Source: Micromonospora cathayae (GTDB taxonomy: Bacteria; Actinomycetota; Actinomycetes; Mycobacteriales; Micromonosporaceae). Taken from it: a stretch of 64,000 bases of DNA. Both the position numbers and the translations under genes were made by a program. Below, piece after piece: positions 22,382-42,287 of this stretch (the first letter of the stretch is position 1; each line of letters starts with the position of its first letter). The DNA is taken from assembly GCF_028993575.1 (NCBI RefSeq), contig NZ_CP118615.1, positions 1,736,001 to 1,800,000 of the forward strand, written 5' to 3'. The notes beneath the pieces were generated by a model, which saw only the letters and a list, made by a program, of their open reading frames with translations, was not told the origin of the DNA and ran no database searches.

Positions 22382-23185
22382 TCAGGCGACCGGGGCGATC
22401 CGGGTGCGACGGTGGCGGCCGTACCAGGCGATGCCGATAGCGACACCCACCCCGACGCCCAGCGCGGCGGCGGCAACCGGGACCGCCGGCCGTTCCCGCA
22501 GCCGGCGGCCGAGCGGGATCGGGTGCCGGAACTCCAGCACCGGCCAGGAGTTCTCGCTGGCCAGCCTGCGGAGCTGCCGGTCCGGGTTCACCACCGTGGG
22601 GTGCCCGACACACTCCAGCAGCGGGCGGTCACTGTACGAGTCGGAGTAGGCGTACGACTCGGCCAGGTCGTAGCCCCGGGCGGTGGCCAACTCGCCGACC
22701 GCCTCGACCTTGCTCGGCCCGGCGGCGTAGAACTCGACCTCGCCGCTGTACCGGCCGTCCTGCACCGCCATCCGGGTGGCGATCACGTCGGTCACCCCGA
22801 GCAGCTCACCGATCGGCCGGACCATCTCCTCGCCGGAGGCGGAGACCAGCACGACGTCCCGGCCGGCGGCCTGGTGCTCCTCGATCAGGGCGGCGGCCTC
22901 GGCGTACACGTAAGGGTTGATCAGCTCGTGCAACGTCTCCGCGACGATCTGGCGGACCTGTTCCACCTGCCAGCCCTTGCACAGGGCGGCCAGGTAGTCC
23001 CGGGTGCGGGCCATGGTCTGCTCGTCGGTGCCGCCCAACCGGAACATCAGTTGGGCGTACGCGGACTTGACGACGTCCCGCCGGGTGATCAGCCCGTCGC
23101 GGTAGAACGGCCGACCGAAGGCCAGCGCGCTCGACTTGGCGATGACGGTCTTGTCCAGATCAAAGAAAGCGGCACCTCGGCCCAC
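22382..23185 (-). CDS. HAD-IB family phosphatase (SerB-like) with C-terminal membrane anchor
   Basis: A 267-residue HAD hydrolase. Motif I is FFDLDKTVI (residues 7-15, nucleophile D9), motif II VLVSASGEE with S at the HAD position, and motif III/IV AYSDSYSDRPLL, where D..D ligates Mg. A Leu/Arg tail with one hydrophobic helix (about residues 232-255) suggests membrane attachment. Family members include phosphoserine phosphatase-like enzymes; substrate unknown. It corresponds to the HAD gene next to ssd in mycobacteria and streptomycetes. GTG 23185 has TAGACT 8 nt upstream and no ribosome site, so it is probably leaderless. Confidence 0.88.
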   Translation of the reverse strand: MGRGAAFFDLDKTVIAKSSALAFGRPFYRDGLITRRDVVKSAYAQLMFRLGGTDEQTMARTRDYLAALCKGWQVEQVRQIVAETLHELINPYVYAEAAALIEEHQAAGRDVVLVSASGEEMVRPIGELLGVTDVIATRMAVQDGRYSGEVEFYAAGPSKVEAVGELATARGYDLAESYAYSDSYSDRPLLECVGHPTVVNPDRQLRRLASENSWPVLEFRHPIPLGRRLRERPAVPVAAAALGVGVGVAIGIAWYGRHRRTRIAPVA

Positions 23186-23399
23186 GGCGCGAAAGTCTAG
23201 CCCGATGGTCTAGGGTCGGCGGGTGCCTGGGGGCGGAGGACCCCGCTCACCTGCGCACACGCTGCCAGAAAGCCGGCTCCAAGTGACCACCGTCACACGA
23301 CTTGAGTGGAAATTCGCAGGGAGTGGAGGTTAGGCCACTCGACGTGAGCAGGTCTGCTACGGCATGCTGGTAGTGCGACGACTTTTCACATCTGCACAA
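23186..23399. other. Intergenic region between the HAD gene and 6C RNA
   Basis: There is no gene. It holds the minus-strand HAD promoter (TAGACT at 23194-23199), a small hairpin GAGTGG/CCACTC near 23320-23340, and an AT-richer stretch before 6C RNA. In other actinobacteria a 6S-like RNA (Ms1/scr3559 group) is reported near this HAD gene; I cannot confirm one here from sequence alone. Confidence 0.4.
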
Positions 23400-23516
23400 C
23401 AACGGCCCTCGGCGGTTGCACCCCCCGTAACCGCTGAGTGAGTTCGGCTCAATCCCCCCCGGAGCCGAACTCCACGACGACCCCCGTCTCCCCCCGACGG
23501 GGGTCGTCCCTTTTCC
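23400..23516 (+). ncRNA. 6C small RNA
   Basis: Three consecutive hairpins carry C-rich loops. Hairpin 1 (23412-23434) has stem GCGGTT/AACCGC and a loop with six C. Hairpin 2 (23441-23471) has stem AGTTCGGCTC/GAGCCGAACT and a loop with seven C. Hairpin 3 (23476-23508) has the perfect 13-bp stem GACGACCCCCGTC, a loop TCCCCCC and then CCCTTTT, an intrinsic terminator. Hairpins with six or more loop cytosines define the actinobacterial 6C RNA family, whose C-rich loops pair with G-rich mRNA starts in mycobacteria. Its place beside the HAD gene and (before element insertion) ssd agrees with the family's known location. The 5' end is uncertain. Confidence 0.75.
23489..23512 (+). repeat. attL core (left 24-bp direct repeat of the integrated element)
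   Basis: Identical over 24 bp to 40192-40215 and in the same orientation. It begins with the loop of the 6C RNA terminator (TCCCCCC), includes the complete 3' arm GACGGGGGTCGTC and ends in CCCTT. The integrase gene ends 26 bp inside it, the usual int-att arrangement. Insertion therefore leaves a complete 6C terminator. Confidence 0.8.
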
Positions 23517-23537
23517 CTGGGAGCGCGCCACCGCAGG

Positions 23538-24809
23538 TCACAGGTCATCCCCGTCCTCTTCGGGAGCGTTCTCAGCGGGCGTTTCCCCGGCCGGAGGCAG
23601 CAGAGAGGCAGCAGGGCCGTCGAAGGCAGCCAGGACGCGAGCCGCGTAGTCGTCCGGGGTGTGGGTGTACCGGTTGAGGGTCGTCGACGCCTGCTCGTGG
23701 CCCATCACCCGCTGTACCAGGTTGATCGGTACGCCGTCGGTCACCAGCCACGTTGCGTAGGCGTGCCGCAGGTCGTGGAACCGCATCCCGCCGGCAGCCT
23801 TGGCCGCGACCTGGGCGACCGCTTCCCGCTCGGTGGTGAACTCCGCCGACCGCTCGACGCCGTCCCGGTCGACCCAGACAGCTAGGTACCGGTGCGGACC
23901 GGAATTGATCACCTGGCCGAGCAGGCCGGCGCGGACCAGCGACGGGAGCCAGACCCGGCGACGGAAGTTCGACCGGCGCAGCGGACGTCCGACCCGGTCC
24001 CGGAAGACGAGGGTTCCGGGGTCCGGATCACCGGAGTCGGCGCGGAGCTGGCGCAGCGCGGCCAGCAGGAAGCCCGGCAGCGGGATGGTGCGGACGCCGG
24101 CCCGGCTCTTCGGGTACGGGCGGAGCACGATGCCGCCGTGCGTCTCCTCGGCGACCTGGACCACGCGCACGGAAGCCCGCTCGAGGTCGACCGACGACCA
24201 GGTCAGCCCGGCGCACTCACCCCAGCGGAGCCCGGCCCCGGCAGCAGCGCTGACGATGGCCCGGTGCCGAGGCGGGACGGCCGGGAGCAGTCGGTCAAAG
24301 AAGTCCTTCCGACCGATTGTGATCGGCTTGACGTCACGCGATCGGTCACGCGGTAGCCGCACACCCTCGGCGGGGTTGACGGCGATCAGCCGGGCCTGAA
24401 CAGCCGTCTTGAGGATCATCGACAGCAGTTGGTAGCACTTGGCGATCGTGGTCGGCGCAAGCTGCCGGTTGAGGCCGGTCACCCACTCCTGCACCGACAT
24501 GAAGTCGACCTTCCCGAGCGGCCAGTCACCCCACTTGGGCAGGACGTGAGCGCGGAGCATCGAGACGGTCCGTTCGGCGGTACGTGCCTCCACCGTCCGG
24601 GTGGCGAGCCACTGTTCAGCGAAGTCGCCGAACCGGGTCCGCCCGGCGTGCGGGTTGACGTACGTGCCCCGGTTGAGGCTGCCCTCCACTTCGGCCAGGA
24701 ATGCATTGGCCTCGCGCTTCGTGCGGAAACTCTTCGACTTCTGCGCGCCGGCCGGGTCACGCCAGCAGGCCCGGAAGGTCCCGGCCGGAGTCTTGCGGAC
24801 GAAGCCCAT
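23538..24809 (-). CDS. int: Site-specific tyrosine recombinase (integrase)
   Basis: A 423-residue phage-type integrase. An N-terminal AP2-like arm-binding region (TFRACWRDPAGAQKSKSF) and a core-binding domain (FAEQWLATRTVEARTAERTV) precede the catalytic domain. The catalytic Arg lies in GLRWGECAGLTW, then HDLRHAYAT (HxxR), then MGHEQASTTLNRYTH with the second His and nucleophile Tyr. It integrates and, with Xis, excises the element at the flanking 24-bp core. The ATG overlaps the xis stop (ATGA), so expression is coupled. A degenerate copy of its 3' end lies outside attR. Confidence 0.95.
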   Translation of the reverse strand: MGFVRKTPAGTFRACWRDPAGAQKSKSFRTKREANAFLAEVEGSLNRGTYVNPHAGRTRFGDFAEQWLATRTVEARTAERTVSMLRAHVLPKWGDWPLGKVDFMSVQEWVTGLNRQLAPTTIAKCYQLLSMILKTAVQARLIAVNPAEGVRLPRDRSRDVKPITIGRKDFFDRLLPAVPPRHRAIVSAAAGAGLRWGECAGLTWSSVDLERASVRVVQVAEETHGGIVLRPYPKSRAGVRTIPLPGFLLAALRQLRADSGDPDPGTLVFRDRVGRPLRRSNFRRRVWLPSLVRAGLLGQVINSGPHRYLAVWVDRDGVERSAEFTTEREAVAQVAAKAAGGMRFHDLRHAYATWLVTDGVPINLVQRVMGHEQASTTLNRYTHTPDDYAARVLAAFDGPAASLLPPAGETPAENAPEEDGDDL

Positions 24810-25081
24810 CAGCGCCTCCGTCCGTGTTCGGTGCCGGTGGCGGCGGCCGGTTCCGCGATGCCGTCGAGCCAGGCATGGAACCGGGTACGCGGGATCAGCC
24901 AGCGCCCACCGAGCCGGGTCGCGGGGATCGTGCCGTCACGGACGAGCGCGTACGTGCTGCCCAGCGAGATCCCGAGCAGCTTGGAAACCTCGCGGACGGT
25001 GTAGGTGACCGGTTCGACGACCGTCGCGCCGGAGCGGGGGAGGAGCCGGAGGACCGGACTCCTGCCAGCGGTGTTGCTCAC
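24809..25081 (-). CDS. xis: Excisionase-family winged helix DNA-binding protein
   Basis: A 90-residue protein with one MerR/Xis-like helix-turn-helix (YTVREVSKLLGISLGSTYALV, then the wing with PATRLGGRWLIPRTRFHAWL). Such proteins bend att DNA and direct the integrase towards excision. CAGGAGG lies 8 nt before GTG 25081. The stop overlaps the int start, the standard xis-int pair of AICEs. Confidence 0.9.
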   Translation of the reverse strand: MSNTAGRSPVLRLLPRSGATVVEPVTYTVREVSKLLGISLGSTYALVRDGTIPATRLGGRWLIPRTRFHAWLDGIAEPAAATGTEHGRRR

Positions 25082-25108: not shown

Positions 25109-26887
25109 TCAGGCGGCGGCCGGCACGGTGCCGGCCGAGGGGGTGCCGAGTTCGTGGGCGAGTTCCTCGCGGCCGGCGGCGCGTCGCTCACGGGCGAGAG
25201 CGGCGGCGGTGTTGGCGAGCAGCGCGTCTCCGCTGGTGTGCCAGCCGACCCCGGCGAAGGTGAGAGCGCCGACGATCAGGGTGGTGTCGTCGAGGTGGTC
25301 GACGGCCTGGACGCCGTCGGGGTGCGCGTGGTCCTGGTCCTCACTGCGCCGGAAGGTGACCCGGGTGTCGCGCAGGAGTTGGAAGGTCACCGAGTAGCGG
25401 CGGGCTTTGGTGAGGAAGTGGCCGCCGAAGCCGAGCATGTGCGCCCAGCGGCGCAGCCGGGCGTACGGGTTGGCCGTCGCCGGTTTCGTCGATTCGGTGT
25501 CAAGGCCGGCTTGACGTTCGGCGACGCAGACGGGGCAGGCGGCGTACCGGGTGTGGGTGCCGCAGTCGGGGCACTCCCAGGGGTCGACGAAGCCGGGCCG
25601 GGGCCGGTGGTCGCGGGGCCGCTGCGAGAGCGGCACGGGCGTGCCGGTGGGTCGGCCGAGTCGCCAGCAGGCGTCGACGAGGCGGGCGGTGTGGTCGCCG
25701 TCGGGGTCGGCGTAGTCGCCGATGGTGTCGGCGGTCAGCCGGACGGATCGGTGCCCGGTTACCTCGGTGCTCTTGGTGGCGTACTTGGCAAGGTAGCCGG
25801 CAACCATGCTGTCGGTGACCTCGCCACGGCCGGTCAGCGAGATTGGCCGGATATCGAGCTGTGCGCCCCAGCGGATCAGCCACCCTTCCGGCTGGTCGGG
25901 GTGCGGCGGGGTGGTGAAGGCGATCAGGTCGACGGCGTACCGGATCGCGTCGTCGAGGTCGGCGGCGGTGAACCCGGCCGGTGGTGGGACGACGGCGGCC
26001 GGGTCGTGCGGGTTGACGCCGTCGAGGCGGATCAGGGCGTGGAAGTGCACCGCCGCGCGGGCCTGGAACTCGGCGGCCTTCCCGTGCGAGATCCGGACCG
26101 GGGAGACGAGGCGGGTCTTGCCGGACGGGCTGGTGACCTGCACGCGGGGGATACCGCGGCGGCGGGCGAGCTTGGTGAGGTACCGCTCCGCGGCCTGCTT
26201 GGTGCGGTGCCACAGTTCGCCGGTGTGCAGGTTCCAGACGACCTGGTGAGCGTGGTCGTAGCAGTCGAGGCAGAGCGGTTGCCCAAGAACGGCGTCGGCC
26301 TGGTCGTGCCGTGCCCAGCACACGGCCGGGCGGCCGTGGGGGCAGGTGCCGGCGTCGCGGCGGGCGTGGCAGGGGTCGGGCCGGCAGTCGCAGCGGTGCC
26401 GGTTGCCGCAGGTGTGCCGCTTGACCGCGCGGACATGCACCGCGCCGAACGAGGGTGCGGTGAAGGTGGCGAACACCGCCGGGTGTCGGGTGACGGTGTC
26501 GGGGACGCCCTTGCCGCCGACGAGGCCGGCGCGCAGGAGCTGGTAGGCGTCGCGCTGGTAGACGGTCGCGCAGGCCGGGCAGACGGTGGCCCGGCGGTTG
26601 CCGCACGCCTTGTAGATCGTGGCGTCGGGCATGCCATCGGTGTGCCGCTGGTCCAGCATCCGGCCGGTGGCCGGGTCGACGGTGTAGAGGCTGCCGGCGA
26701 GGCGGATCGGGCGGGTGCAGCCGGCGGCGGCCCGGACGTGCTCCAGCCAGCCGAAGTAGTCGGGTCGGCCGGCACGGTGCAGGGCCTGCCCGGCGGCGGT
26801 GTAGCCGGCCAGCGGGATGGTGTCGGCGTTCGAGCCCACACCCCGGGCCAGAGCGGCACGGGGTGTGAGGTCCAGCGTCGAGGCCAT
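25109..26887 (-). CDS. RepSA-like rolling-circle replication initiator
   Basis: A 592-residue Rep. Several Cys pairs in the first half (CPACATVY, CGNRHRCDC, CLDCYDH) look like zinc-binding fingers. The metal-binding HUH motif is HFHALIRLD near residue 280, and the catalytic Tyr is in GYLAKYATK near residue 364. This is the pattern of the RepSA proteins of pSAM2-type AICEs, which nick an origin and replicate the excised circle by rolling circle. ATG 26887 overlaps the stop of the upstream small gene; a longer frame to 27163 is in the antisense-like Pro/Arg composition of a shadow. The palindrome at 25499 lies inside it. Confidence 0.9.
   Translation of the reverse strand: MASTLDLTPRAALARGVGSNADTIPLAGYTAAGQALHRAGRPDYFGWLEHVRAAAGCTRPIRLAGSLYTVDPATGRMLDQRHTDGMPDATIYKACGNRRATVCPACATVYQRDAYQLLRAGLVGGKGVPDTVTRHPAVFATFTAPSFGAVHVRAVKRHTCGNRHRCDCRPDPCHARRDAGTCPHGRPAVCWARHDQADAVLGQPLCLDCYDHAHQVVWNLHTGELWHRTKQAAERYLTKLARRRGIPRVQVTSPSGKTRLVSPVRISHGKAAEFQARAAVHFHALIRLDGVNPHDPAAVVPPPAGFTAADLDDAIRYAVDLIAFTTPPHPDQPEGWLIRWGAQLDIRPISLTGRGEVTDSMVAGYLAKYATKSTEVTGHRSVRLTADTIGDYADPDGDHTARLVDACWRLGRPTGTPVPLSQRPRDHRPRPGFVDPWECPDCGTHTRYAACPVCVAERQAGLDTESTKPATANPYARLRRWAHMLGFGGHFLTKARRYSVTFQLLRDTRVTFRRSEDQDHAHPDGVQAVDHLDDTTLIVGALTFAGVGWHTSGDALLANTAAALARERRAAGREELAHELGTPSAGTVPAAA
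25499..25515. repeat. 17-bp palindrome, copy 1 of 3
   Basis: GTCAAGGCCGGCTTGAC, a perfect palindrome inside the rep coding region. Near-identical copies lie at 28715 and 35272; I found none outside the element. Possible site for an element-encoded DNA-binding protein. Confidence 0.6.
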
Positions 26888-27156
26888 CAGGCGGCAACCC
26901 CGTCGTCGGGGTGCCGGTTGGTGATGGTGCGTTCGGAGACGATGACCCGGCAGGCACCGCACTGGCGAGCAGCCGGTTCGTGCCGGTGGCACGGGATGAA
27001 GGTGGTCACGTCGCCGCAGCGAAGGGTGACCGGAGTCCGGCAGGGACCGCCGGGGATGACGTGCACGACGGTGCGTCGGGTGTCGTACGGATGGGGCTCC
27101 GGCTCGGCCGGGCAGGTGTGGAGGACGTGTTCGATGTCGACGATGTGGATGGTCAT
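26887..27156 (-). CDS. Small AICE protein, unknown function, Cys/His-rich C-terminus
   Basis: An 89-residue protein (starts MTIHIVDIEHVLHTC). The second half carries FIPCHRHEPAARQCGACRV, a C-x-H-x-H and CxxC pattern that could bind zinc. ATGA overlaps join it to the Spd-like gene before it and to rep after it, so it is translated as part of the replication/transfer operon. No closer family recognised. Confidence 0.7.
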   Translation of the reverse strand: MTIHIVDIEHVLHTCPAEPEPHPYDTRRTVVHVIPGGPCRTPVTLRCGDVTTFIPCHRHEPAARQCGACRVIVSERTITNRHPDDGVAA

Positions 27157-28067
27157 CGGGCACCTACCGGGGTGCCGTTGACGGTGGGTTCGGTGATGGC
27201 GTCCAGGAGCGCCGCCGCGACGGGCGGGGTGAGGTTGAGCCGGGCGGCCAGCTCGTCGGCGGTGATGGGGTGGCCGGTGGCCTGCTCGTGCTGGACGGCG
27301 GCGAACCGTGCCGTCGGCAGCAGGTGGGTAGGGACCGTCACCGGCTCAGCGGCCGGCGTGCTGACCGGCTCAGGAGCCGGGACGGCGGTCGGTGTGGGGG
27401 TCGGGTCGGCAACCGCGACGGGCACCGGGTCGGAGTCGGGTTCGGTGGTGACGGCCGGCTCTGCCGGCGTGGCGGGTGCCGAGGTGATGGCAGCCGGCGG
27501 AGTCGGCTCGGAGGTGACCTGCTCTGCCACCTGGACGGAGATGGGGTTGACCTGCTCGACGGCAGACGGTTGGTTCTTGGCGGCCAGGTCGTTGGCGGCG
27601 GCGAGGAGTGCGGCGGCTTCGGCTTCGATGGCGGCGAAGTCGGGTCGGATGCGTCCGGCGACGAGTTCGACGCCGATGACGAGGACGACGACCAAGGCGA
27701 AGACGAGGCGTAGGCCGAGGCTGCCGGGGGACGCGAAGTTGATGGTTGCCGACAGCAGCGCGGCACCGACGAAGACGACCATCGCGCCCCGCTTGGCGTC
27801 ACGGGCGATGCCCGAGGTACGGACGACGGTCAGCATCGACACCATGGCGGCGTCGAAGATCAGCGGGACGAGGTAGGCGAAGTAGCCGGCGTTCTGGGTC
27901 CACAGGTAGTGGGCCTGGTGCAGGTAGCTGGTCAGCAGCGCACCGAGCAGGACGAAGCGGTTGTACCGCTTGATGGAACCGATTGCCTTGAGCATGGTCG
28001 GCACCGCGTTGCGGGCGTACTCGGCGGCGAACTGTTCGGTGAACGTGCCGGTTTCGGGTGCGGTCAT
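27153..28067 (-). CDS. Spd-like (DUF2637-type) membrane protein of the transfer operon
   Basis: A 304-residue protein. Residues about 25-145 contain four to five membrane helices (RFVLLGALLTSYLHQAHYLW, then VPLIFDAAMVSMLTVV and others). A charged helix (about 148-175) follows, then a long Pro/Thr/Val-rich linker and a C-terminal helix-turn-helix-like segment (ITADELAARLNLTPPVAAALL). It resembles the DUF2637/SpdB-type proteins linked to intramycelial plasmid spread. ATG 28067 is internal to a longer open frame whose N-terminus is low-complexity and overlaps the RRQRL gene, so it is rejected. Confidence 0.8.
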   Translation of the reverse strand: MTAPETGTFTEQFAAEYARNAVPTMLKAIGSIKRYNRFVLLGALLTSYLHQAHYLWTQNAGYFAYLVPLIFDAAMVSMLTVVRTSGIARDAKRGAMVVFVGAALLSATINFASPGSLGLRLVFALVVVLVIGVELVAGRIRPDFAAIEAEAAALLAAANDLAAKNQPSAVEQVNPISVQVAEQVTSEPTPPAAITSAPATPAEPAVTTEPDSDPVPVAVADPTPTPTAVPAPEPVSTPAAEPVTVPTHLLPTARFAAVQHEQATGHPITADELAARLNLTPPVAAALLDAITEPTVNGTPVGAR

Positions 28068-28069
28068 GG

Positions 28070-28444
28070 TCAGTGGCCTCCGTGGCAGTCGAGGCAGCAG
28101 CCGTAGCGGCGGGGGATGTAGTAGGGCTTGACCTGCTCGCAGAGTCGGCAGGTCCGACGGGCACGCAGCGCCTTGCCGATGGCGGCCCGTTGGGAGGCGG
28201 TGGCGGTGCGCTTGGGCTTGGCCAGGTCGAGCCGGTACAGGTAGGCGACGCGCTTGCCGCGCCGCCAGAGGATCTGGGCGACAGGGGTCTGTCCGCCGGG
28301 GCGGAGGCCGGCGGCCCGCAGTTGCCGGACGGTGGCGAGCCCGGCCGGGGCCATCAGGTAGGGGAAGGTGGGGAACCCGTGGCGGGTGCCGAGCGGGTCG
28401 TAGAACCGCAGGCGCAGACCGATCAGGTGGGTGAGGTCGGTCAT
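28070..28444 (-). CDS. RRQRL-motif zinc-binding protein
   Basis: A 124-residue protein with GFPTFPYLMAPAGLATVRQLRAAGLRPGGQ, then ILWRRGKRVAYLYR, then LAKPKRTAT, and a C-terminal zinc pair CRLCEQ...CCLDCHGG. This is the order seen in the small 'RRQRL motif-containing zinc-binding' proteins of actinomycete plasmids and AICEs, although the motif here reads VRQLR. Role unknown, presumably nucleic-acid binding in replication or transfer. It overlaps the upstream HTH gene by ATGA and ends 2 bp before the Spd-like gene. Confidence 0.8.
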   Translation of the reverse strand: MTDLTHLIGLRLRFYDPLGTRHGFPTFPYLMAPAGLATVRQLRAAGLRPGGQTPVAQILWRRGKRVAYLYRLDLAKPKRTATASQRAAIGKALRARRTCRLCEQVKPYYIPRRYGCCLDCHGGH

Positions 28445-28746
28445 GGCCGGTCACCCCAGCGCTGCTGGGCGGCCTGGCGGGAGATGCCGAGCCGGGCACC
28501 GATCTCGGCCCAGGAGTAGCCGAAGGCACGGAGGCCGACGACGGCCGCACCGATCGCGTCATCGAGAGCGGCCGAGAGGGAGACCAGGTCGCGGAGGGCT
28601 TCCACGTCTCCGGTGGCGACCCGGCGACCGTGGGCACGGATGATCCGCCGTGCGAAGGCGGCGAACTCGTCGTTCTCGACGACGTCCCGACGCCGTTGCT
28701 GTCGGGGGAGGGGCGTCAAGGACGCCTTGACGGTCGGAGCGGTCAT
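28441..28746 (-). CDS. Small HTH DNA-binding protein (sigma-70 region 4-like)
   Basis: A 101-residue protein. The C-terminus is a clear helix-turn-helix (GYSWAEIGARLGISRQAAQQRW), and the N-terminus is basic (RQQRRRD). It likely binds element DNA. The second palindromic 17-bp repeat lies within its first codons (28715-28731), so it could be autoregulated (inference). ATGA overlaps on both sides place it in the long minus-strand operon. Confidence 0.8.
   Translation of the reverse strand: MTAPTVKASLTPLPRQQRRRDVVENDEFAAFARRIIRAHGRRVATGDVEALRDLVSLSAALDDAIGAAVVGLRAFGYSWAEIGARLGISRQAAQQRWGDRP
28715..28731. repeat. 17-bp palindrome, copy 2 of 3
   Basis: GTCAAGGACGCCTTGAC, at the 5' end of the small HTH gene. 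Arms GTCAAG/CTTGAC match the copies at 25499 and 35272. Confidence 0.6.
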
Positions 28747-28928
28747 GCGGCACCGCCCGGGGTCGGGTCTACCTGCTGGTGGTCGGTGGCCCAGGATTCG
28801 GCACAGACCTTGTGGCAGGGCTTGCCCTTGGGGCTACGGCAGATGGCCGGTTGCCCGCAGATGACGCAGGGTTCCGGGGTGCCGGCGCTGCCGGACTTGC
28901 TCCAGTCGATGAAGACGGTGGTGGTCAT
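28743..28928 (-). CDS. Very small zinc-ribbon-like AICE protein
   Basis: A 61-residue protein with CVICGQPAIC and CHKVC, four or more Cys spaced like a zinc ribbon, and KGKPCHKVC as the second half. ATGA overlaps with both neighbours. Similar tiny zinc proteins are common in AICE transfer operons; function unknown. Confidence 0.7.
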   Translation of the reverse strand: MTTTVFIDWSKSGSAGTPEPCVICGQPAICRSPKGKPCHKVCAESWATDHQQVDPTPGGAA

Positions 28929-29368
28929 CGGGAGTCACCACCGGTCGCGTGGCGGTGCTCCCACTCGTCGGCGGCGGCGTTGAGGGCGTCGATGACGTCC
29001 TCGGCGGTGTGGCCGGCGCTGTCGTTCCAGGCGAACGGTTCGGAGTGCTCTTCGAGCCAGTAGCCGTCCTCGTCGACGAGGTGGATGGGGTGGGCGAGGT
29101 CGAGGTAGGCGACCATCGCGGCGATAGCTGCCCGGTAGACCGCCCGGTAGTCGGGATGCACCTCGGTGAGGTGCTTGGCCTGCCGGCCCTCACAGGCCAT
29201 GCCGATAGCCCCGACCAGACAGGCGGGCGGGGTGGGGTCGGTCCAGTCGGTGGGCAGGTAGTACATGCCCTGAATCCAGCCGTGCCGGCTCAGGTAGAGG
29301 GCAGCACCACGGAGAACCTCGGCCGGGGTGGCCGGTTCTCCGGTGGGCGGGTTGTGGGTAGCCTTCAT
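28925..29368 (-). CDS. DUF6197-like AICE protein
   Basis: A 147-residue soluble protein beginning MKATHNPPTGEPATPAEVLRG, with ALYLSRHGWIQGMYY, ACLVGAIGMACEGR and a C-terminal FAWNDSAGHTAEDVIDALNAA. This pattern (an early xxL..AxxxLxxHGW, then CLxGAI, then WNDxxGRTxxEVixaLr) is common in small actinomycete proteins of the DUF6197 group with unknown function. AAAGGA lies about 10 nt upstream of ATG 29368; a GTG three codons earlier has no room for a ribosome site. Confidence 0.75.
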   Translation of the reverse strand: MKATHNPPTGEPATPAEVLRGAALYLSRHGWIQGMYYLPTDWTDPTPPACLVGAIGMACEGRQAKHLTEVHPDYRAVYRAAIAAMVAYLDLAHPIHLVDEDGYWLEEHSEPFAWNDSAGHTAEDVIDALNAAADEWEHRHATGGDSR

Positions 29369-29453
29369 GGCAGCCACGTCCTTTCGAGGGCTGTTGGTGA
29401 GGCCGGCAGGACCAGCTCTGCTGGCAGGCGGAATGCGCTGGTCCTGTCGGTTG

Positions 29454-29633
29454 CTAGGTGGTGGGGGTCAGGCGGACGACGATTCGCAGCCGCGTGTCTG
29501 CCGCGCTGACCGGAGCGGGTACGGACATGAAGACGAGCCGGCCGCACTGGCGGGCCATCGCCTGAATCACGTCGATCTCTTCGCGGGTGCCGGTGACGAC
29601 CATTTCGGTGAACCGGCGAGGGGTGTGCTTCAT
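29454..29633 (-). CDS. 59-residue AICE protein, unknown
   Basis: A short gene: ATG 29633 overlaps the TGA of the FtsK-like gene (ATGA) and it ends with TAG at 29454. The product reads MKHTPRRFTEMVVTGTREEI and continues as an alpha/beta-like domain with RLVFMSVPAPVSAADTRLR. Codon use with strong third-position GC and the coupled overlap argue that it is real. No family recognised. Confidence 0.65.
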   Translation of the reverse strand: MKHTPRRFTEMVVTGTREEIDVIQAMARQCGRLVFMSVPAPVSAADTRLRIVVRLTPTT

Positions 29634-30499
29634 GCGGCCATCCCCCAGTCAGCGGGAGTACCGGTCGGGGTGGTGAGGCCACCGGGGCGACGGACCCAGG
29701 CGGCGTAGTCGGCGATGCCGGCGATCTGGGCGTCGGAGAGGTAGGCGGCCTTGATGCGGCGGGGCGTGCCGCCCTCCGCGATGAGGTAGGCCGCGCCCTG
29801 GTTGGTGGGCGGGATGTCGGTGGCGGAGTAGCCCTGCTCGGCCCAGCCGTGGCCGAGGACGATGTTCGAGCTGTTCGGGGTGGTGCAGCGGAACGCGGCC
29901 CGGTAGCCGAACAGGTCCCGCAGGCTGGTGGGGATGATGTCGAACGACGGCCGCTGGGTGGCGGCGACGACGGGGATGCCGGCGGCCCGGCCCCGGGCGA
30001 CCAGGTCGCGGAGCAGGGCGACGAATTCTTCCTGTTCCTGCTTGCTGCCGACGGTGGCGGAGAAGAAGGCGATCTCGTCGACCAGGACGGTGATCACGCT
30101 GAGTCGGTCGGCGGCGGTCAGCTTGCGGCGGCCGTGGGCGCGCAGCCAGGCGTACCGGTTGTTCATCACCTGCTGGAGCCGTCGCAGGACGGCCAGGGCG
30201 GCGGTGATGTCGGGGCCGATGAAGGCGTCGGCGATGTCTTCCCACTGCCCGAGTTCGACGAGCTTGCCGTCGAGGAGCACGAGCCGGGAGTCGACGGACA
30301 GGGCCGCGTGTGCGGCGATGGTGTTGAGGAGGCCGGACTTGCCGCCGCCGGGCTCACCGCCGGCGAGGAGGTTGCGGTAGGCCAGGGTGATGTAGACGGG
30401 CTGTCCGAACTCGTCGATGCCGATGAAGATCGGGTCGAACATCGACAGGCCAGGCCCCACCGGAACACCGGCGGTCGGGGCGGCAGTGGTGCGGTTCAT
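29630..30499 (-). CDS. FtsK/SpoIIIE-type DNA translocase (TraB/TraSA-like conjugation motor)
   Basis: A 289-residue ATPase. Walker A is GGEPGGGKSGLLN (about residues 46-58), Walker B ITVLVDEIAFF (about 132-142), and TQRPS and RDLFGYRAAFRC follow as in FtsK domains. It lacks membrane helices. In AICEs a single protein of this kind moves double-stranded DNA between hyphae and recognises a clt sequence. AAGGAGGG 5 nt before ATG 30499 fixes the start. The separate membrane protein encoded just upstream probably supplies its membrane part. Confidence 0.9.
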   Translation of the reverse strand: MNRTTAAPTAGVPVGPGLSMFDPIFIGIDEFGQPVYITLAYRNLLAGGEPGGGKSGLLNTIAAHAALSVDSRLVLLDGKLVELGQWEDIADAFIGPDITAALAVLRRLQQVMNNRYAWLRAHGRRKLTAADRLSVITVLVDEIAFFSATVGSKQEQEEFVALLRDLVARGRAAGIPVVAATQRPSFDIIPTSLRDLFGYRAAFRCTTPNSSNIVLGHGWAEQGYSATDIPPTNQGAAYLIAEGGTPRRIKAAYLSDAQIAGIADYAAWVRRPGGLTTPTGTPADWGMAA

Positions 30500-30588
30500 G
30501 GTGGCCCTCCTTGGGCGGTTGTTGGGCGCGAGGAACCCCACGAACGAGCCGTAGCGGGCTCCTCGCGTCCTGGTTGATGTGGTTGGGA

Positions 30589-31509
30589 TCAGATCCAGTC
30601 GGACATGTCGTCGGTGTCGGTCGACGACGAAGCCGCCGACGGCTTGGAGCCGTTGGCGGTGGCCGGGCGGGGTGCCGGCAGGGTGACGGTGGAGGCTTCC
30701 ACGTCGGGAAGATCCAGGGCCGTCGGTGGCGTGACCGGTGCCCGGTCGCTGACCGGGGTGTCGGGATCGATCACGTCGACCAGAGGTGAACCGACGGTCG
30801 CGGTGAGCACCTCACGGCGCTTGATGTCGAACCGCAGGAACGCGGCATTGCTGTCGGAGGCCCGCTCGATCAGGGCGGACGAGGCGTGACAGGTGACAGC
30901 GATCTTGTCGAGGCGGCCTTCCAGGTCCTTGGCCGACAGGCCGGGACGCAGGTAGACCCAGACCCGCTCACCCACCGGGGTGGGGCGAGCCCAGAGGATC
31001 AGCGGCAGGGAGCCGGACTGGTTGGCGATGATGAACTGCGAGAAGCACACCCGCAGCCGGTGGCGCACGATCAGGCACCAGGCCCAGGCAACGATGGCCC
31101 GGCGGACCACCGGGATGGCGGCGGGGACACCAACGACCAGGGCGACCACGGCGAGGGTCACCAGGGCCGGGGTGTGGGTGGCGAGTTGCACCCAGGCGGC
31201 GAGCAGGGTCGTCGTGATCAGGATTTCGGGCAGCCACCACCACAGCAGCCGCAGGACCGGCCAGATACGGACGAGCAGCCAGGCGGCGGCACCGGTCGGG
31301 ATGCCGATGGCCGCGCCGACGAACAGGGCAATGATCGGGTGCCAGTACGAGGCGGCGACCACGGCCGACAGGAGACCGACGATGACGCCGGTCAGCACGA
31401 ACGCCAGCCGGGCGTTACGTGCGGAGGAACGGTGAACCCTGGCCTCGATGACCGTCACCGTTGGCGAGGACTTCCGCCCGAACAGGCGGGCAGGGCTAGA
31501 CTTGGACAC
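30589..31509 (-). CDS. Membrane protein preceding the FtsK-like motor, probable transfer partner
   Basis: A 306-residue protein. Residues about 33-75 and 80-140 hold four hydrophobic helices. A soluble domain then reads RPTPVGERVWVYLRPGLSAKDLEGRLDKIAVTCHA (quoted in part by position, about residues 188-225), like the segment that comes before Walker A in full-length TraB/FtsK proteins. The tail is Ser/Thr/Asp-rich. It looks like the N-terminal half of a TraB whose motor is encoded separately. GGGAGGA lies 6 nt before GTG 31509. Confidence 0.7.
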   Translation of the reverse strand: MSKSSPARLFGRKSSPTVTVIEARVHRSSARNARLAFVLTGVIVGLLSAVVAASYWHPIIALFVGAAIGIPTGAAAWLLVRIWPVLRLLWWWLPEILITTTLLAAWVQLATHTPALVTLAVVALVVGVPAAIPVVRRAIVAWAWCLIVRHRLRVCFSQFIIANQSGSLPLILWARPTPVGERVWVYLRPGLSAKDLEGRLDKIAVTCHASSALIERASDSNAAFLRFDIKRREVLTATVGSPLVDVIDPDTPVSDRAPVTPPTALDLPDVEASTVTLPAPRPATANGSKPSAASSSTDTDDMSDWI

Positions 31510-32948: not shown

Positions 32949-33707
32949 ATGCCGAACAACCGCCTGCGTGACGCCATCCTCCGCAACGGCATGACGCCCG
33001 CAGTGATCGCCGAGAAGATCGGGGTCGACCCGAAGACGGTGGAACGGTGGATCACCCAGGACCGGACGCCGTACCCGCGCCACCGGCACGCAATCGCCGC
33101 ACTCGTCCGCGAGGATGAGTCGTACCTCTGGCCAGACGCGGTGACTGCGGAGGCTGCCTCGCAGATCGGGCAGAGCGAGATGATCCAGCTCTACTCCCGG
33201 CGATCCTCTGTGCCGTACGACCTCTGGCGCCGCCTGATCGAGCGGGCGGAGAAGCGGATCGACGTGTTGGCCTACGCCGGCCTGTTCCTGGTGGAGCAGG
33301 ATCCGATGCTCGTCGACACCCTGCGGCAGAAGGCGGAGGACGGCGTCGAGGTGAAGATCCTGCTCGGTGATCCGACCAGCGACGCTATCGAGCGTAAGAG
33401 CGTCGAGGAGGGTACGCCCGGCGTGATGGCCGCGAAGATCCGTCAGGTGCAGCAGTACTACAACCGGCTGGACGGCGTGCAAGGCGTCAAGGTGCTCTAC
33501 CACGACACGACGCTGTACAACTCGATCTACCGCTTCGATGACGAGATGCTGGTGAACATGCACGTGCTCGGGTTCCCGGCACCACACGCGCCCGTGATGC
33601 ACCTGCGCAGGATCAACGGCGGTGACCTGTTCCGCACCTACTCCGACAGCTTCGACCGGGTCCTGTCGGCCTCCTGGTCGCTGAAGGGCGGCGAGGTGGC
33701 AGCCTAG
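32949..33707 (+). CDS. XRE-type HTH regulator with PLD-like C-terminal domain
   Basis: A 252-residue protein. The N-terminus is a helix-turn-helix (RNGMTPAVIAEKIGVDPKTV, then ERWITQDRTPYPRHR). The C-terminal two thirds (from about residue 80: YSRRSSVPYDLWRRLIERAE) resembles a phospholipase-D-like fold, but without a full HKD motif (YHDTTLYNS instead). Proteins with this layout recur in AICEs as the regulator divergent from the replication and transfer operon. TGGAGGG lies 4 nt before the ATG. The 11-bp inverted repeat in front of it is a candidate operator. The Nudix gene follows 5 bp later. Confidence 0.85.
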   Translation: MPNNRLRDAILRNGMTPAVIAEKIGVDPKTVERWITQDRTPYPRHRHAIAALVREDESYLWPDAVTAEAASQIGQSEMIQLYSRRSSVPYDLWRRLIERAEKRIDVLAYAGLFLVEQDPMLVDTLRQKAEDGVEVKILLGDPTSDAIERKSVEEGTPGVMAAKIRQVQQYYNRLDGVQGVKVLYHDTTLYNSIYRFDDEMLVNMHVLGFPAPHAPVMHLRRINGGDLFRTYSDSFDRVLSASWSLKGGEVAA

Positions 33708-33712
33708 AGGGC

Positions 33713-34183
33713 ATGGCGAGGATCGAGCACTACCACGACCCGAACGCGCCGAGGGCCAACACCATCGTCGTGGCGGTCTCCGTCTTCGTCCGGGACGACC
33801 GTGGCCGGGTGCTGCTCATCCAGCGCACCGACAACGGGCTGTGGTCGCTGCCAAGCGGCGGCCAGGAGATCGGCGAGTCGGTCGCGCAGACGGCGGTCCG
33901 GGAGACCCACGAGGAGACCGGCATCAGCGTCGAGGTGACCGGCTTGGTAGGCGTCTATTCCGACCCCGGCCACGTCATCGAGTACTCGGACGGCGAGGTG
34001 CGGCAACAGTTCTCGCTCTGCTTCCGCGCTGTGCCGGTCGGCGGCGAGCCGACCCCGAGCGACGAGTCAAGCGACGTCCGATGGGTCGCGCGCGACGAGC
34101 TGGGGACGCTGGACATCCACCCGTCGACCCTGCTCCGCATTCAGCACGGCTATCAGGAACGCGGCGAACCCTACATCGGCTGA
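33713..34183 (+). CDS. Nudix hydrolase (Pif-like candidate)
   Basis: A 156-residue Nudix protein. The box GGQEIGESVAQTAVRETHEE plus TGI fits the GX5EX7REUXEEXGU consensus completely, so it should be catalytically competent. In pSAM2 the plasmid immunity factor Pif is also a Nudix protein, blocking transfer into cells that already carry the element. The position here, directly behind the AICE regulator (5 bp), makes that role plausible but unproven. It overlaps the end of the HD-domain gene by 13 bp in convergent orientation. Confidence 0.9.
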   Translation: MARIEHYHDPNAPRANTIVVAVSVFVRDDRGRVLLIQRTDNGLWSLPSGGQEIGESVAQTAVRETHEETGISVEVTGLVGVYSDPGHVIEYSDGEVRQQFSLCFRAVPVGGEPTPSDESSDVRWVARDELGTLDIHPSTLLRIQHGYQERGEPYIG

Positions 34184-35271: not shown

Positions 35272-35288
35272 GTCAAGGCCGTCTTGAC
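35272..35288. repeat. 17-bp palindrome, copy 3 of 3
   Basis: GTCAAGGCCGTCTTGAC; it contains the stop codon of the methyltransferase gene on the minus strand. The arms match the copies at 25499 and 28715. Confidence 0.6.
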
Positions 35289-36433
35289 GTGGCGGGCCGG
35301 GCAGCGGCCCGCTCCACAGGAGTGCGGGTCGACGGCAGACGGGATGGCAGGGGTCCAGGTGTGGCGGACTGTCCGCAATCCGACAACTGGGCCGAGCCGC
35401 CTTGGACGAGACGGCGGACAGTCGCTCCAAGAGCCTTCGCCATACGAACCGGAACGGCGTTACCTATTTGCCGCTCAATTGATCCAAAGTCACCCTTAAA
35501 AGCATAGGTCGGTGGAAAGGTCTGGAAAGCTGCCGCCTCGCGAAGCGTGAGGCCGCGATGTTCCGTTGGATGAATGAATGAACCGCACGCCGGAGTGGTG
35601 CACCTGGTGGTCATCGTCGGCGCAGGTTCATCCAAGCGAACTCGACCGTACGATGCCGTCGCATGCCTGGCCCGCAGATTGTCATGACAAGCCAAACGAT
35701 GCTCTGGAGGCAGGTCGAAACGGTTGCCTCCAACAGGGATTGCCTTGATGCGAGCAAGAACCTTTGGCGAATGAACACGATGCCTATCCAGGTTGCTGCC
35801 TTCCAGTATCGTGGAGGACAGTTGCTCCAAGGCGGTTCGTGCGGTCGTTGGATTCTCCGTGAACCATTCTCCGAGTAGGTCGGAGACAGTGTCGGGGAGC
35901 CGGACGCGGCGACCGCGAATGGCCAGCATGATCAATCGTCGCCTTCGCTGAGGCACCCCAACCCAGGCAGCATCGAGACGGAAACTCTTGATCTGGTAGC
36001 CCAGCGCGCTAAGGGCCTTCTGAAGTCGGCTGAACCGCGCGTCCCTCTCAAGGCCAGGAACGTTCTCTAACAACACCGCAGAGGGTTTGAAGGCGCGCAC
36101 GAACCGGATCACGTCGAGAACCAGGTCGTTCCGGGCGCTACCTTTTGCCGAATCGCCGCCAGGGCCGAGAGTCGAGAACCCTTGACACGGCGGACATGCC
36201 TTCAGGAGCGTCAGTTCGCCGACATTCAGGTTCAAGTCCCGGCGCATACCCGTCGCAGTTAACAGCCGAATGTCGCGATCCCAAAGCTTGACATCAGGGT
36301 GATTGATTCTATAAGACGCGGCGGCATCGGGGTCAACTTCCACAGCCCCAATGACGTCAAATCCAGCTGACCGAAGTCCCTCGGTGGCGCCACCGGCGCC
36401 GGCGAACAAGTCGACGCATGTTAGGCGGATCAC
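35273..36433 (-). CDS. C5 cytosine-specific DNA methyltransferase (Dcm type)
   Basis: A 386-residue methyltransferase. Motif I is VDLFAGAGGATEGL (residues 8-21), motif IV ACPPCQGFSTLG with the catalytic Cys, motif VI VLLENVPGL, motif VIII PQRRRRLIML, and the C-terminal motifs end with RQIGNAVPV. It methylates cytosine at C5; the target recognition domain (about residues 190-290) does not tell me the site. About 45 unconserved residues follow motif X. GTG 36433 has TAGCAT 6 nt upstream, so it is probably leaderless. It is divergent from the MORC-like ATPase gene across 124 bp, and both have lower GC than the backbone, so they form one cargo module. Confidence 0.93.
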   Translation of the reverse strand: MIRLTCVDLFAGAGGATEGLRSAGFDVIGAVEVDPDAAASYRINHPDVKLWDRDIRLLTATGMRRDLNLNVGELTLLKACPPCQGFSTLGPGGDSAKGSARNDLVLDVIRFVRAFKPSAVLLENVPGLERDARFSRLQKALSALGYQIKSFRLDAAWVGVPQRRRRLIMLAIRGRRVRLPDTVSDLLGEWFTENPTTARTALEQLSSTILEGSNLDRHRVHSPKVLARIKAIPVGGNRFDLPPEHRLACHDNLRARHATASYGRVRLDEPAPTMTTRCTTPACGSFIHPTEHRGLTLREAAAFQTFPPTYAFKGDFGSIERQIGNAVPVRMAKALGATVRRLVQGGSAQLSDCGQSATPGPLPSRLPSTRTPVERAAARPATSRRP

Positions 36434-36557: not shown

Positions 36558-38849
36558 GTGCACGAGACCTATCAACCTGGAGAACGTGGCGGTGCAGGCG
36601 GATCTCCGCAGCCATCGTCTTCAGGTGGAGCGCAGGTGCCAGCTACGCGCCCTGCGGCTGACGGGGCAGCTGGGCTACCTAAGTACACGATGAAGATCAG
36701 CCGGCTCACCATCGACAAGCTGGGCATTAAGCTCTATGACAGGGTCACGGCCGTTCTTGCCGAGCTGATCGCAAACTCTTACGACGCGGACGCGGCGACA
36801 GTAACCATCACCCTGCCTTGGGGAACACTTTTGGCCCGTGCCGGCAAGTCCGGACCAGGCGACCATGTGCAGCTTGCCGAAGCTGGTGACGGGAGGCACC
36901 AGGCGGTTGAGGTAGCGGATGCACAAGGAGCGCTACTGAGCAGTGATGACGCCGGTGGAGTAGACGGTCAGGGGCGAGGCCATGAGATCTTGATCGTGGA
37001 TGACGGCCACGGCATGACGTCCGATGAGTTGAACAAGCAATATCTCTCGGTTGGCGCAGACCGGAGGAAACGGACGGGAAGTGATAAATCTCGCCACCGC
37101 CACCGACCGGTCATGGGCCGTAAGGGTATCGGGAAGCTTGCCCCCTTTGGGATCTGCGAGACCGTAGAGGTAATCACCGCTGGCGGCGAAGAAACGCCGA
37201 TGGGCTATCGCGTGTCGCATATCATAATGCGGTTGTCGGAAATGCTTGCTGACACGGATGATGAATACAATCCGCAGCCAGGCGAGTTCGACGGGACGTT
37301 CTCCAAAGAGTCGGGCACAACTGTAAAACTGAGGGACTTCTTCAGAAAGCGTGTCCCTAGTCGTGATGAACTCGATAGGCAGCTTTCGGCTCGGTTCGGC
37401 CTGACGCGTACTGACTGGATGGTCAGAGTCGTAAACTCGCTCAATGCCCAGCAGTCATTTGAGCTAGGCACACTGAAAATAGATTTTATGGACGACACCT
37501 TTATGGATGTGTCCGATATGCCGGTCAGATTCGAAGATAGCTTTCTGCCTGTCACGGGCTTCGTCGCCTACTCGAAGAAGCCGTATAAGGACCCGGCTAT
37601 GGCTGGTGTCCGAATATATGCGCGAGGTAAGATTGTCGCCCAGACGCGGGATTTTGACATCGGCGCTGGCTTCACTGGCGAATTCACTCTAAGGTCATAC
37701 CTTGTCGGCGAGATTCATGCCGAATGGCTAGACCAGGAAGATGATTTAGTGCGGTCGGACCGCCAGGACATTATCTGGCATTCAGACCAGGGTGAGGCTC
37801 TGAGGAATTGGGGGCAGAAACTTACCAAAGCCCTCGCTAAGCGTGGCGCGGCGGCAATGAAAAAAGAGAAATGGGCGGAGTTCGAGAAAAAATCTGATCT
37901 GAAGAAGCGCCTTGATCAAGCAGCGCCGAATGAGCCGGAGCTGAAGCACTCCGTAACTGAGGCGGCGAAACTGCTTGTCAAGGACGTTGACCCCGAGGCC
38001 CTGGAGGATCAGGACCACGTCGACCGGCTAACTGAACTCGCCTTCTCTATTGGCCCGCACCAAACGTTACTTGGAACCCTCAGAGAGGTTTCCGAGACGA
38101 CGGCTACAACAGTTGACGCTGTCATGGCACTGTTTCAGCGGGCTCGTATGGTTGAAATGTACTCCCTGGGGCAAGTGGCTGAGGAGCGCCTCGACGTAAT
38201 CACAAAGCTGGAAGAGTTAATTGCCAATGGGAGGACGCTTGAGAGGCCATTGCAAGAGCTAATCGAGCAGGCACCCTGGCTATTGGCTCCCGAGTGGACG
38301 CCTCTCGGGATGAATGAGTCACTGAAGCGGGTGCGGGCAAGCTTCGAGGCATGGTATGAGAAGGTCTTCGGGGTTGCCGTCGTTACGTCTGCCATCGACA
38401 ACGAGCGAAAGGAGCCCGACTTCGTTATGCTCAACGACGCCGGAGTCCTCTGGATCGTTGAGATCAAACGGCTTGAATATCACCTGACGGATGAAGAGTA
38501 TCAGCGCGGGTTCGGCTATCTCGCCGCACTGACGAAATTCCTTGACGATAATCCAGTTCTCGGCGAGCAGTTCCCGATACGAAGGTTAACTTTCGTGTCC
38601 GATTATATGGACAAACTTAGCCCTGTTTCGCTCTCGTCTTTGAATTCGGATGCTCGCGTCTCTCACCGTACCTGGCATGAACTCCTCGACTTCACCAAGC
38701 GCGCACACCGGGACTTCCTAGTAAGAGTAGAGTCGTCCGGAGTCAGTCTCCGGGCGGATGAGGACCCAGTCGATGAGCAGACGCTGTTTGAGGATCCGCA
38801 CATTCCCGTGAGCGACGGTGACCGCCCCACAAACCAGCCGACTCAATGA
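36558..38849 (+). CDS. MORC/MutL-like GHKL ATPase with C-terminal PD-(D/E)XK-like nuclease domain (predicted restriction partner)
   Basis: A 763-residue protein. After about 40 residues the GHKL ATPase domain starts with TMKISRLTIDKLGIKLYDRV and the N-box AELIANSYDADA; LIVDDGHGM is the G1 box and MGRKGIGKLAPFG the lid. A central helical part leads to a C-terminal domain with EPDFVMLNDAGVLWIVEIKR (near residues 625-645), a PD...ExK nuclease signature. Such MutL/MORC-like ATPases linked to DNA methyltransferases have been described as components of restriction-modification systems (Iyer, Abhiman and Aravind). GAGGAGG precedes GTG 36558. Divergent from the C5 methyltransferase. GC is clearly lower than in the neighbours, which points to separate acquisition. 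Confidence 0.8.
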   Translation: MHETYQPGERGGAGGSPQPSSSGGAQVPATRPAADGAAGLPKYTMKISRLTIDKLGIKLYDRVTAVLAELIANSYDADAATVTITLPWGTLLARAGKSGPGDHVQLAEAGDGRHQAVEVADAQGALLSSDDAGGVDGQGRGHEILIVDDGHGMTSDELNKQYLSVGADRRKRTGSDKSRHRHRPVMGRKGIGKLAPFGICETVEVITAGGEETPMGYRVSHIIMRLSEMLADTDDEYNPQPGEFDGTFSKESGTTVKLRDFFRKRVPSRDELDRQLSARFGLTRTDWMVRVVNSLNAQQSFELGTLKIDFMDDTFMDVSDMPVRFEDSFLPVTGFVAYSKKPYKDPAMAGVRIYARGKIVAQTRDFDIGAGFTGEFTLRSYLVGEIHAEWLDQEDDLVRSDRQDIIWHSDQGEALRNWGQKLTKALAKRGAAAMKKEKWAEFEKKSDLKKRLDQAAPNEPELKHSVTEAAKLLVKDVDPEALEDQDHVDRLTELAFSIGPHQTLLGTLREVSETTATTVDAVMALFQRARMVEMYSLGQVAEERLDVITKLEELIANGRTLERPLQELIEQAPWLLAPEWTPLGMNESLKRVRASFEAWYEKVFGVAVVTSAIDNERKEPDFVMLNDAGVLWIVEIKRLEYHLTDEEYQRGFGYLAALTKFLDDNPVLGEQFPIRRLTFVSDYMDKLSPVSLSSLNSDARVSHRTWHELLDFTKRAHRDFLVRVESSGVSLRADEDPVDEQTLFEDPHIPVSDGDRPTNQPTQ

Positions 38850-39869: not shown

Positions 39870-40191
39870 ACGTGCCATGAGAGCTTCCTAGCAGAACGAC
39901 ATGGGGTGGCAGCGGAATGGCTGCCGACAGTAACGATGACAGCAACCATGCCGGACGGCAGCTTGCTGAGGAACACGTGCACCGACGAAGCCCGATCTTG
40001 CAGCCGTTCCCGGACGCGTGCGGACGCTGTGCACAGAGCTTGTAAGCGAGGCATCGGGCAGCGGCAAGGCAGCAAGAAGGCAGCGCGAGCGTCGATGCAG
40101 GTCGGCCCCGAACGTGAACCGACGACGCCTGGCACCTGCTCACCGACGCAGGCCGCCACCGTTTGACAGCGGCCGGCAGTTTCAGTCCGCA
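39870..40191. other. AICE right end, no gene seen
   Basis: About 320 bp between the zinc-finger gene and attR. No open frame with convincing codon use, and no strong hairpin. Confidence 0.5.
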
Positions 40192-40215
40192 TCCCCCCGA
40201 CGGGGGTCGTCCCTT
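40192..40215 (+). repeat. attR core (right 24-bp direct repeat)
   Basis: Exact copy of 23489-23512, same orientation. Here only the loop and 3' arm of the 6C terminator are present (CCGACGGGGGTCGTC), without the 5' arm, as expected for the displaced end of the target gene after integration. Confidence 0.8.
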
Positions 40216-40240
40216 GTCCGGGTAGACGCTCCGGCGCAGC

Positions 40241-40306
40241 TCACAGGTTGTCGCCGTCCTCGTCGGAGCCGTCCCCGGAGGCTGATCCCCGGCCGGAAGC
40301 GGCGGG
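40241..40306 (-). pseudogene. Remnant of an integrase 3' end
   Basis: Read on the minus strand this gives GPAAS, a Gly/Ser-rich stretch and then EDGDNL-stop. The element's own integrase ends GPAASLLPPAG...EDGDDL-stop at the same distance from the core. The sequence between stop and core is also recognisably alike (CTGTGA, a GCTGCG/CCTGCG stretch, then AAGGGACGACCCC). Upstream of GPAAS the similarity stops. It looks like the tail of a related, otherwise deleted element that used the same att site. Confidence 0.6.
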
Positions 40307-40519
40307 ACCTGTGACGGCGCCCGGCTCCCATGATCGTCCGAGGGCTGGGGTGTGGTGCAGCGGAACGCTCTTGTGCACGACACCCGTGGTGCCGGTGGAG
40401 GCCCTGCTGTCGGTGACCTCGCTGCGGGCCGGTCAGCGGGAGGGGCCGGACGTCCACCCGATCGCCCCGGCACATGAGTCGGCGTTCCGGCCGCTCCCGA
40501 GGGGCGAAGCGGTCTGCCG

Positions 40520-41999: not shown

Positions 42000-42287
42000 C
42001 GACGTTCTGGTCTCCGTTCGCCGACGCTGCCGCCAAAGGCGGGCGAAGGCCCGATCATCCGTACGGACGTTCTCGTGGATCAATGGACCTTACCGGCACC
42101 GTTCGATGTGATCACGCGGGGACCAGCGACAACCGCCGGTCCGAGGTCCGTCCGCTTAGCAGATCAACTGCCGGATCGGGGGTTGTCCACAGGCGGTCGA
42201 GTTATCCACAGGTACGGGTCGGAAGCCAGCGGGCGGGGTGTCCGGTGGAGCAGGGTCTCGGCAACACCCCGACCACTGGAGGCCGCG

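Follow-up and report, generated by a model that had tools for sequence, protein, structure and literature searches.

A pSAM2-type AICE at the terminator hairpin of the 6C small RNA gene of Micromonospora cathayae

The stretch of DNA analysed here (64,000 nucleotides of Micromonospora cathayae, referred to below as the window) very probably contains a pSAM2-type AICE inserted in the terminator hairpin of the 6C small RNA gene. The element has given the hairpin a new 3' half, and its integrase probably belongs to a group that shifted from the anticodon stem-loop of tRNA genes. That a family of AICEs targets 6C is well supported by the comparison of genomes.

The 6C gene, the cores and the genes between them

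Features of the window, by position:
22382..23185, minus strand, HAD-family gene, left chromosomal neighbour (PF12710, 120.9 bits)
23408..23438, plus strand, extra first C-loop hairpin, 5' of the Rfam 6C model (RNA fold; upstream C-run counts)
23437..23512, plus strand, 6C small RNA (Rfam, 69.2 bits), with a terminal hairpin (23476-23508) that the element completes
23489..23512, plus strand, attL core (exact 24-bp repeat): the terminal hairpin from its 7-nt loop through the 3' arm to the start of the U-tract
23538..24809, minus strand, tyrosine integrase, 423 aa, convergent with 6C (PF00589, 77.7 bits; relatives at 6C)
24809..25081, minus strand, Xis-like protein, HTH_17 (PF12728, 55.2 bits)
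25109..27163, minus strand, replication initiator RepSA (PF20199, 486 bits; NF041486, 355 bits, below the equivalog cut-off of 700)
27153..28637, minus strand, DUF2637-domain ORF (PF10935, 27.9 bits)
28925..29377, minus strand, DUF6197 protein (PF19698, 98 bits)
29630..30541, minus strand, FtsK/SpoIIIE-type (TraB-like) DNA translocase, short, 303 aa (PF01580, 51.2 bits, cut-off 24; TraB NF041214, 44 bits, cut-off 800)
30589..31509, minus strand, conserved element protein (75-79% identical in the elements of relatives; no Pfam match)
32949..33707, plus strand, HTH / PLD-like protein (PF13091 and PF13384 below threshold; 79-87% identical in relatives)
33713..34183, plus strand, NUDIX hydrolase (PF00293, 83.1 bits)
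35273..36433, minus strand, C-5 cytosine DNA methyltransferase, cargo (PF00145, 179.4 bits)
36558..38849, plus strand, BbrUII/HgiDII-like restriction enzyme, cargo (NF050001, 253 bits, below the cut-off of 550)
40052..40191, plus strand, right end of the element (similar to the right ends of related elements)
40192..40215, plus strand, attR core, displaced half-terminator (exact repeat; fold of the copy)
40216..40491, minus strand, remnant of an older AICE of this type, with the 3' end of int at about 40216-40303 and a repSA piece at about 40402-40491 (sequence similarity)
41351..41643, no strand, chromosomal flank (67-69% identity; close behind 6C in empty-site genomes)
41430..43388, plus strand, ORF with a ParA/MinD-like C-terminal part, right chromosomal neighbour (PF13614, 28.7 bits, residues 415-453)

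A preliminary description of this DNA had predicted a 6C RNA with C-rich loops. The loops lie where it placed them, and the Rfam 6C model (RF01066) matches the gene over model positions 1-75, with a score well above the gathering score of 47 bits and an E value of 5.6e-7. A genome-wide search for 6C gave no other copy in this genome. The predicted fold of 23400-23516 has three C-loop hairpins at -67.7 kcal/mol (z -8.9, with none of 200 shuffles as low), the third of which has a perfect 13-bp stem (23476-23488 with 23496-23508) around a 7-nt loop, followed by the U-tract. The Rfam model covers the second and third hairpins and the first is additional to it. This extra hairpin lies directly 5' of the model, with a similar one in most of the fetched Micromonosporaceae loci, and of 270 6C hits (fetched loci, many of them redundant) 254 have a C-run in the 60 nt upstream. 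The Rfam 6C model may be too short here. There is no tRNA or tmRNA gene within the window, which rules out either as the target used here.

An exact 24-bp direct repeat was found at the end of 6C (23489-23512) and again at 40192-40215, the two copies being separated by 16.7 kb. Markov-1 simulations of 23001-41000, 40 in all, contained no exact direct repeat longer than 16 bp. Under a looser control that tolerates up to three mismatches, 0.48 occurrences of a 19-bp piece are expected from the shuffled window; two were observed, both with no mismatches, and this number was reached in 6 of 100 shuffles. No third copy of the core was detected in the window at up to three mismatches, and viral contigs gave no exact match. 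As had been proposed, the left core coincides with the loop, the 3' arm and the start of the U-tract of the third hairpin. The right copy has the same core but lacks the terminal hairpin, its fold being no better than that of its own shuffles (z -0.5), and it is the displaced half-terminator that the preliminary description saw in it. The whole 13-bp hairpin is present at attL, so that, as the sequence shows, 6C has retained its terminator after the insertion: the 3' half now comes from the element, and the old half has moved to the far end. This is the arrangement of RNA-gene islands, where the core makes the 3' part of the target complete again and a fragment is displaced to the other end, here with a target that is neither a tRNA nor a tmRNA.

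The predicted genes between the cores are a pSAM2-type AICE set, in agreement with the earlier assignment: a site-specific tyrosine integrase adjoining the att site, an Xis-like protein, RepSA, an FtsK/SpoIIIE-type transfer protein and a NUDIX hydrolase. The replication initiator and the transfer protein are recognised by their Pfam domains, though neither reaches its equivalog cut-off (those of NCBIfam for RepSA and TraB, respectively). NUDIX hydrolases are frequent in AICEs according to the available part of one survey (PMC3218068). The DUF2637 ORF may have a Spd-like role, and its annotated start is probably too far upstream. The HTH / PLD-like protein is probably regulatory. The methyltransferase and the BbrUII/HgiDII-like enzyme, which bears a HATPase_c_3 domain, form a divergent pair at 35273-38849 and are probably a restriction-modification system that the AICE carries as cargo.

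Self-transfer of this copy is uncertain, because its FtsK protein is short and scores far under the cut-off for TraB. This, the decayed element next to it (see below) and the many 6C loci with just partial integrases or remnants would fit an immobile relic and no working AICE. Such a relic is rather unlikely given that the frames of the integrase, the Xis-like protein and RepSA are open, that the integrase retains the R, H-x-x-R, H and Y residues, which we take to be the catalytic ones, and that both cores are exact.

Empty sites and the remnant of an older element

The HAD gene adjoins 6C in all 149 Micromonospora loci examined, and many loci that lack the element have ssd (a name that comes from the preliminary description) close to 6C. 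In three genomes with an empty site (G003, G082 and G077) the chromosomal flank begins 41, 53 and 88 bp after 6C, respectively, with 67-69% identity, and the alignment of the joined flanks contains one intact 6C and one core. The predicted order of HAD gene, 6C and ssd with a single core was therefore found in the three of them.

The right boundary proposed earlier stood as far as the cores and the empty-site prediction are concerned, but a decayed older element comes first beyond the right core, and the similarity to the chromosomal flank of other genomes, which begins at 41351-41379, places the return of the chromosome near 41350. About 1.1 kb of the presumed right flank holds an earlier decayed insertion. 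The segment between attR and the chromosome (40216-41350) is the shrunken remnant of an AICE of the same type. Similarity between the flanks of the left and right copies extends to 113 nt at 72%, because the 3' end of int of the older element persists to the right of the second core. The tblastx part of the remnant comparison was left unused, being noisy in G+C-rich DNA. In addition, two adjoining 32-bp direct repeats, 91% identical, were found in the decayed stretch (40511-40574). Accretion and decay of AICEs have been described, as far as the available text of the report goes (PMC9513070).

The target in Micromonospora and beyond

Within the genus, 6C is present once in each of 150 of the 151 genomes, that of the window included. 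The exception (G001) has an integrase at a contig end. In Micromonospora endophytica (L121) the contig ends inside 6C, with model positions 37-73 present. A match to the integrase family was found just downstream of 6C in 65 of the 149 other loci (21 full, i.e., at least 380 aa, 17 partial and 27 small) and no match in 84, about one third of which were covered for 1.5 kb only. A second search of these unmatched loci, with a profile built from 72 integrases, yielded one hit (L304, from G138; E 0.001), which overlaps the position of 6C and reads as a short integrase remnant, making 65 of 149 a lower bound. The nearest integrase match was at most 170 bp from the core in 64 of the 65 loci and 730 bp in the other. 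Compared by eye, 35 of the 41 integrase matches with at least 60% identity were within about 350 bp of 6C, and none of the 20 with less than 60% was at 6C. The six exceptions were the second element of a tandem (G149), one integrase each in G090 (contig C6) and G001 (at the contig end mentioned), two of the fragmentary G014, and a 79%-identical partial integrase away from 6C in G125. Locus L129, whose coordinates agree with the G090 case, has a type A right end (see below) and a core on the int side, as in a tandem array. Also by eye, a RepSA match adjoins the 6C-side integrase in 20 of 20 genomes, that of the window included, although it is partial in some (e.g., G007 and G248).

Seventeen genomes combine a full-length integrase match with 17 kb or more of sequence downstream. 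All but one of them (16 of 17) had a second core, whose first copy was 8.9-27.5 kb away. No second core was found in the remaining one (G029), in three genomes with short contigs or, within 8.7-15.9 kb, in three cases from other genera. One copy, in G013, has one mismatch. In all 18 copies from the 16 genomes, and likewise in the window, the common block starts within one nucleotide of the start of the terminator loop (15 of the 18 begin at the first loop nucleotide, two begin one nucleotide earlier and the remaining one begins one nucleotide later). Some 6C loops have 8 nt and not 7. In G013 the block is cut short by the mismatch; elsewhere it reaches into or beyond the U-tract, and past the U-tract the DNA varies among loci.

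In named genomes, we retained the best 79 of 432 loci with related integrases. 6C adjoins the integrase in 24 of these 79, all of them Micromonosporaceae and from at least six genera (Micromonospora, Salinispora, Phytohabitans, Plantactinospora, Actinoplanes and Actinocatenispora). When only near-complete integrases among the best 79 of 432 were considered (60 loci), 16 were at 6C, 35 at the 3' end of a tRNA gene in the same orientation (Val, Pro, Ala, Asp, Ile and Glu) and nine had neither within 400 bp, some of these being at contig ends. A second copy of part of the tRNA was found in 17 of 34 tRNA loci (some are near-duplicates, and L141 and L204 are seemingly one contig). The block begins 2-5 nt ahead of the anticodon in every one of the 17 (at position 29-34 of the tRNA, the anticodon being at 33-36), which places its start at the anticodon loop or at most 3 nt before it. 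In the 6C users it begins at the 7-nt terminator loop. The elements at tRNA-Ala, Val, Pro, Asp and Ile genes, with integrases 44-59% identical, are thus alike in family, orientation and a block starting at a stem-loop, and differ in that their loop is the anticodon loop of a tRNA and not that of the 6C terminator.

The integrase tree comprised 72 sequences, with L167, L178, L182 and L185 omitted for stops or frameshifts. Also omitted were 19 of the 79 named loci, eight of them at 6C and most with a partial integrase. The use of 6C required two changes on this tree, against a mean of 19.8 for shuffled labels, and none of 500 shuffles was as low. The 6C users fall in a clade of 26 sequences (support 100/99) that also includes two tandem second elements and a tRNA-Ala user (L132), and whose internal branching order is unsettled. 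A single target shift is not proven, because L132 sits inside the clade. The sequences next to this clade, five of them from the genus, are users of tRNA-Ala(TGC).

In the class-level search 6C was found in 129 of 246 genomes, and 47 loci from outside Micromonosporaceae were taken for a scan of the 1.5-2.5 kb downstream. With a profile of this integrase family alone, which unrelated recombinases (serine ones included) could escape, none of the 47 had an integrase beside 6C, and in the other genera of Micromonosporaceae there were hits in 4 of 44 loci (L085, L340, L351 and L361, the last one weak with E 3e-5). Relatives of the integrase on plasmids and phages (82 and 1059 records, respectively) were all below 60% identity. 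Beside 6C in Actinoplanes couchii (L163, 7170-11262) there is a distant integrase (49%) with a Prim-Pol protein near it, and no RepSA was among the three ORFs tested; this is perhaps a second, separate use of the 6C target. Three of the genomes listed (G172, G268 and G421) have two 6C matches each, against one in nearly all the others. Extra 6C copies are also known on mycobacterial chromosomes and plasmids, and in the available part of that report the authors favour horizontal acquisition, with duplication possible (PMC9569102). Any link of the mycobacterial copies to elements of this kind would be a guess.

An integrase reads DNA and not RNA, and the core is just 24 bp long, so the target might be the HAD-ssd intergenic DNA and its overlap with 6C incidental. 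The common block starting at the loop in every copy, over DNA that varies past the U-tract, makes this highly improbable, as do the integrases of Actinocatenispora, Actinoplanes and Phytohabitans, found at 6C despite variant letters in the hairpin, and the relatives that use tRNA anticodon stem-loops with the same geometry.

The right end of the element in the window matches those in seven other genomes with 76-82% identity, reaching the core; the match stops exactly there in two of the seven and 7-49 bp past it in the others. Two types could be distinguished. Type A elements (integrases about 87% identical) have a right end finishing in CCGCAT or close to it in eight of ten genomes (not in G064 and G066), and type B elements (integrases 65-68% identical) one finishing in AGGTCACTTT or one letter off in seven of seven. 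In G149 (L088 and L089) a type A and a type B element are in tandem at one 6C, with three cores and the right end specific to each type. It is hardly credible, even in a region whose older remnant on the right side speaks for rearrangement, that the 24-bp repeat is no att site and only the leftover of a terminator duplication or of recombination among decayed elements, when the DNA before the core resembles element right ends, the match stopping exactly at the core in two genomes, and type B elements carry a different, nearly constant right end before the same core.

Mechanism, known systems and significance

Tyrosine recombinases act on core binding sites that are inverted with respect to each other and flank an overlap of 6-8 bp. 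In the mechanism that we favour, the integrase would recombine attB with attP through a common segment that extends from the 7-nt loop through the 3' arm to the start of the U-tract. The incoming element supplies the 3' half of the hairpin and pushes the old half to its own far end, as the terminator retained in the sequence shows. From the positions, the cores and the tree, which are observed, we infer that the 13-bp arms would be the core binding sites of the integrase, that strands would be exchanged in the loop and that the target would have moved from the tRNA anticodon stem-loop to the 6C terminator stem-loop and not the other way round. The shift is likely on the evidence of the tree and the core geometry, since in both sites inverted repeats enclose a loop of about 7 nt. 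Sites centred on the anticodon are used by about half of the islands in Islander (2083 of 3919, in the part of the work available; PMC4383910). It is quite possible, if tentative, that this integrase family recognises inverted repeats in DNA around a constant loop of about 7 bp, that sRNA terminators can replace anticodon stem-loops, and that one or two shifts gave rise to a 6C-specialised AICE lineage that swaps the 3' half of the sRNA with each integration, so that the terminator would evolve as a shared property of host and element.

tmRNA carries a tRNA-like end and 6C has none, which sets the two apart. As far as the available texts go, the tmRNA genes targeted by phages and islands (Islander, PMC4383910; attB-11 of M. 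abscessus, PMC8092301) are alike in offering as attB an RNA gene beyond plain tRNA. The PrrF1/PrrF2 islands of P. aeruginosa also resemble the present case, with a conserved sRNA locus as hotspot and at least one sRNA left intact, and differ in the insertion downstream of PrrF1 or PrrF2, the duplicated locus, and the bacteria and integrases involved; no description of half-terminator replacement was found in the accessible part of that study (PMC8373256). The new target class announced in the preliminary description was therefore an overstatement, and an sRNA as attB is not wholly new, because islands at PrrF1/PrrF2 and tmRNA genes had been published. The vast majority of AICEs with tyrosine integrases are in tRNA genes, the pSLS subfamily excepted, in the portion of the survey at hand (PMC3218068). 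To judge from the same portion and from that of the report on pACPL of Actinoplanes (PMC3364876), pSAM2-type AICEs share with the element in the window the Int-Y, Xis, RepSA, FtsK-type Tra and NUDIX genes, the size, an integrase gene adjoining the att site and the 3' end of an RNA gene as site, and the element in the window differs in having an sRNA terminator hairpin as target. In the available part of the literature on 6C RNA, that found with 6C RNA and integrase included, there was no description of 6C as an att site.

The finding suggests how integrases could leave tRNA genes and yet retain their advantages, i.e., a constant sequence, an inverted repeat and a 3' end that can be repaired. 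Other constant hairpins, sRNA terminators for instance, would be predicted to serve as hidden integration sites; 22.8% of the mapped islands were in the intergenic class in one survey, by the part of it available (PMC12424338). For Micromonospora, a single-copy attB present in nearly all the genomes examined, together with a matching integrase, would be useful for integration vectors. A natural experiment is offered as well, with the target shift present in some members of a single integrase family and absent from others.
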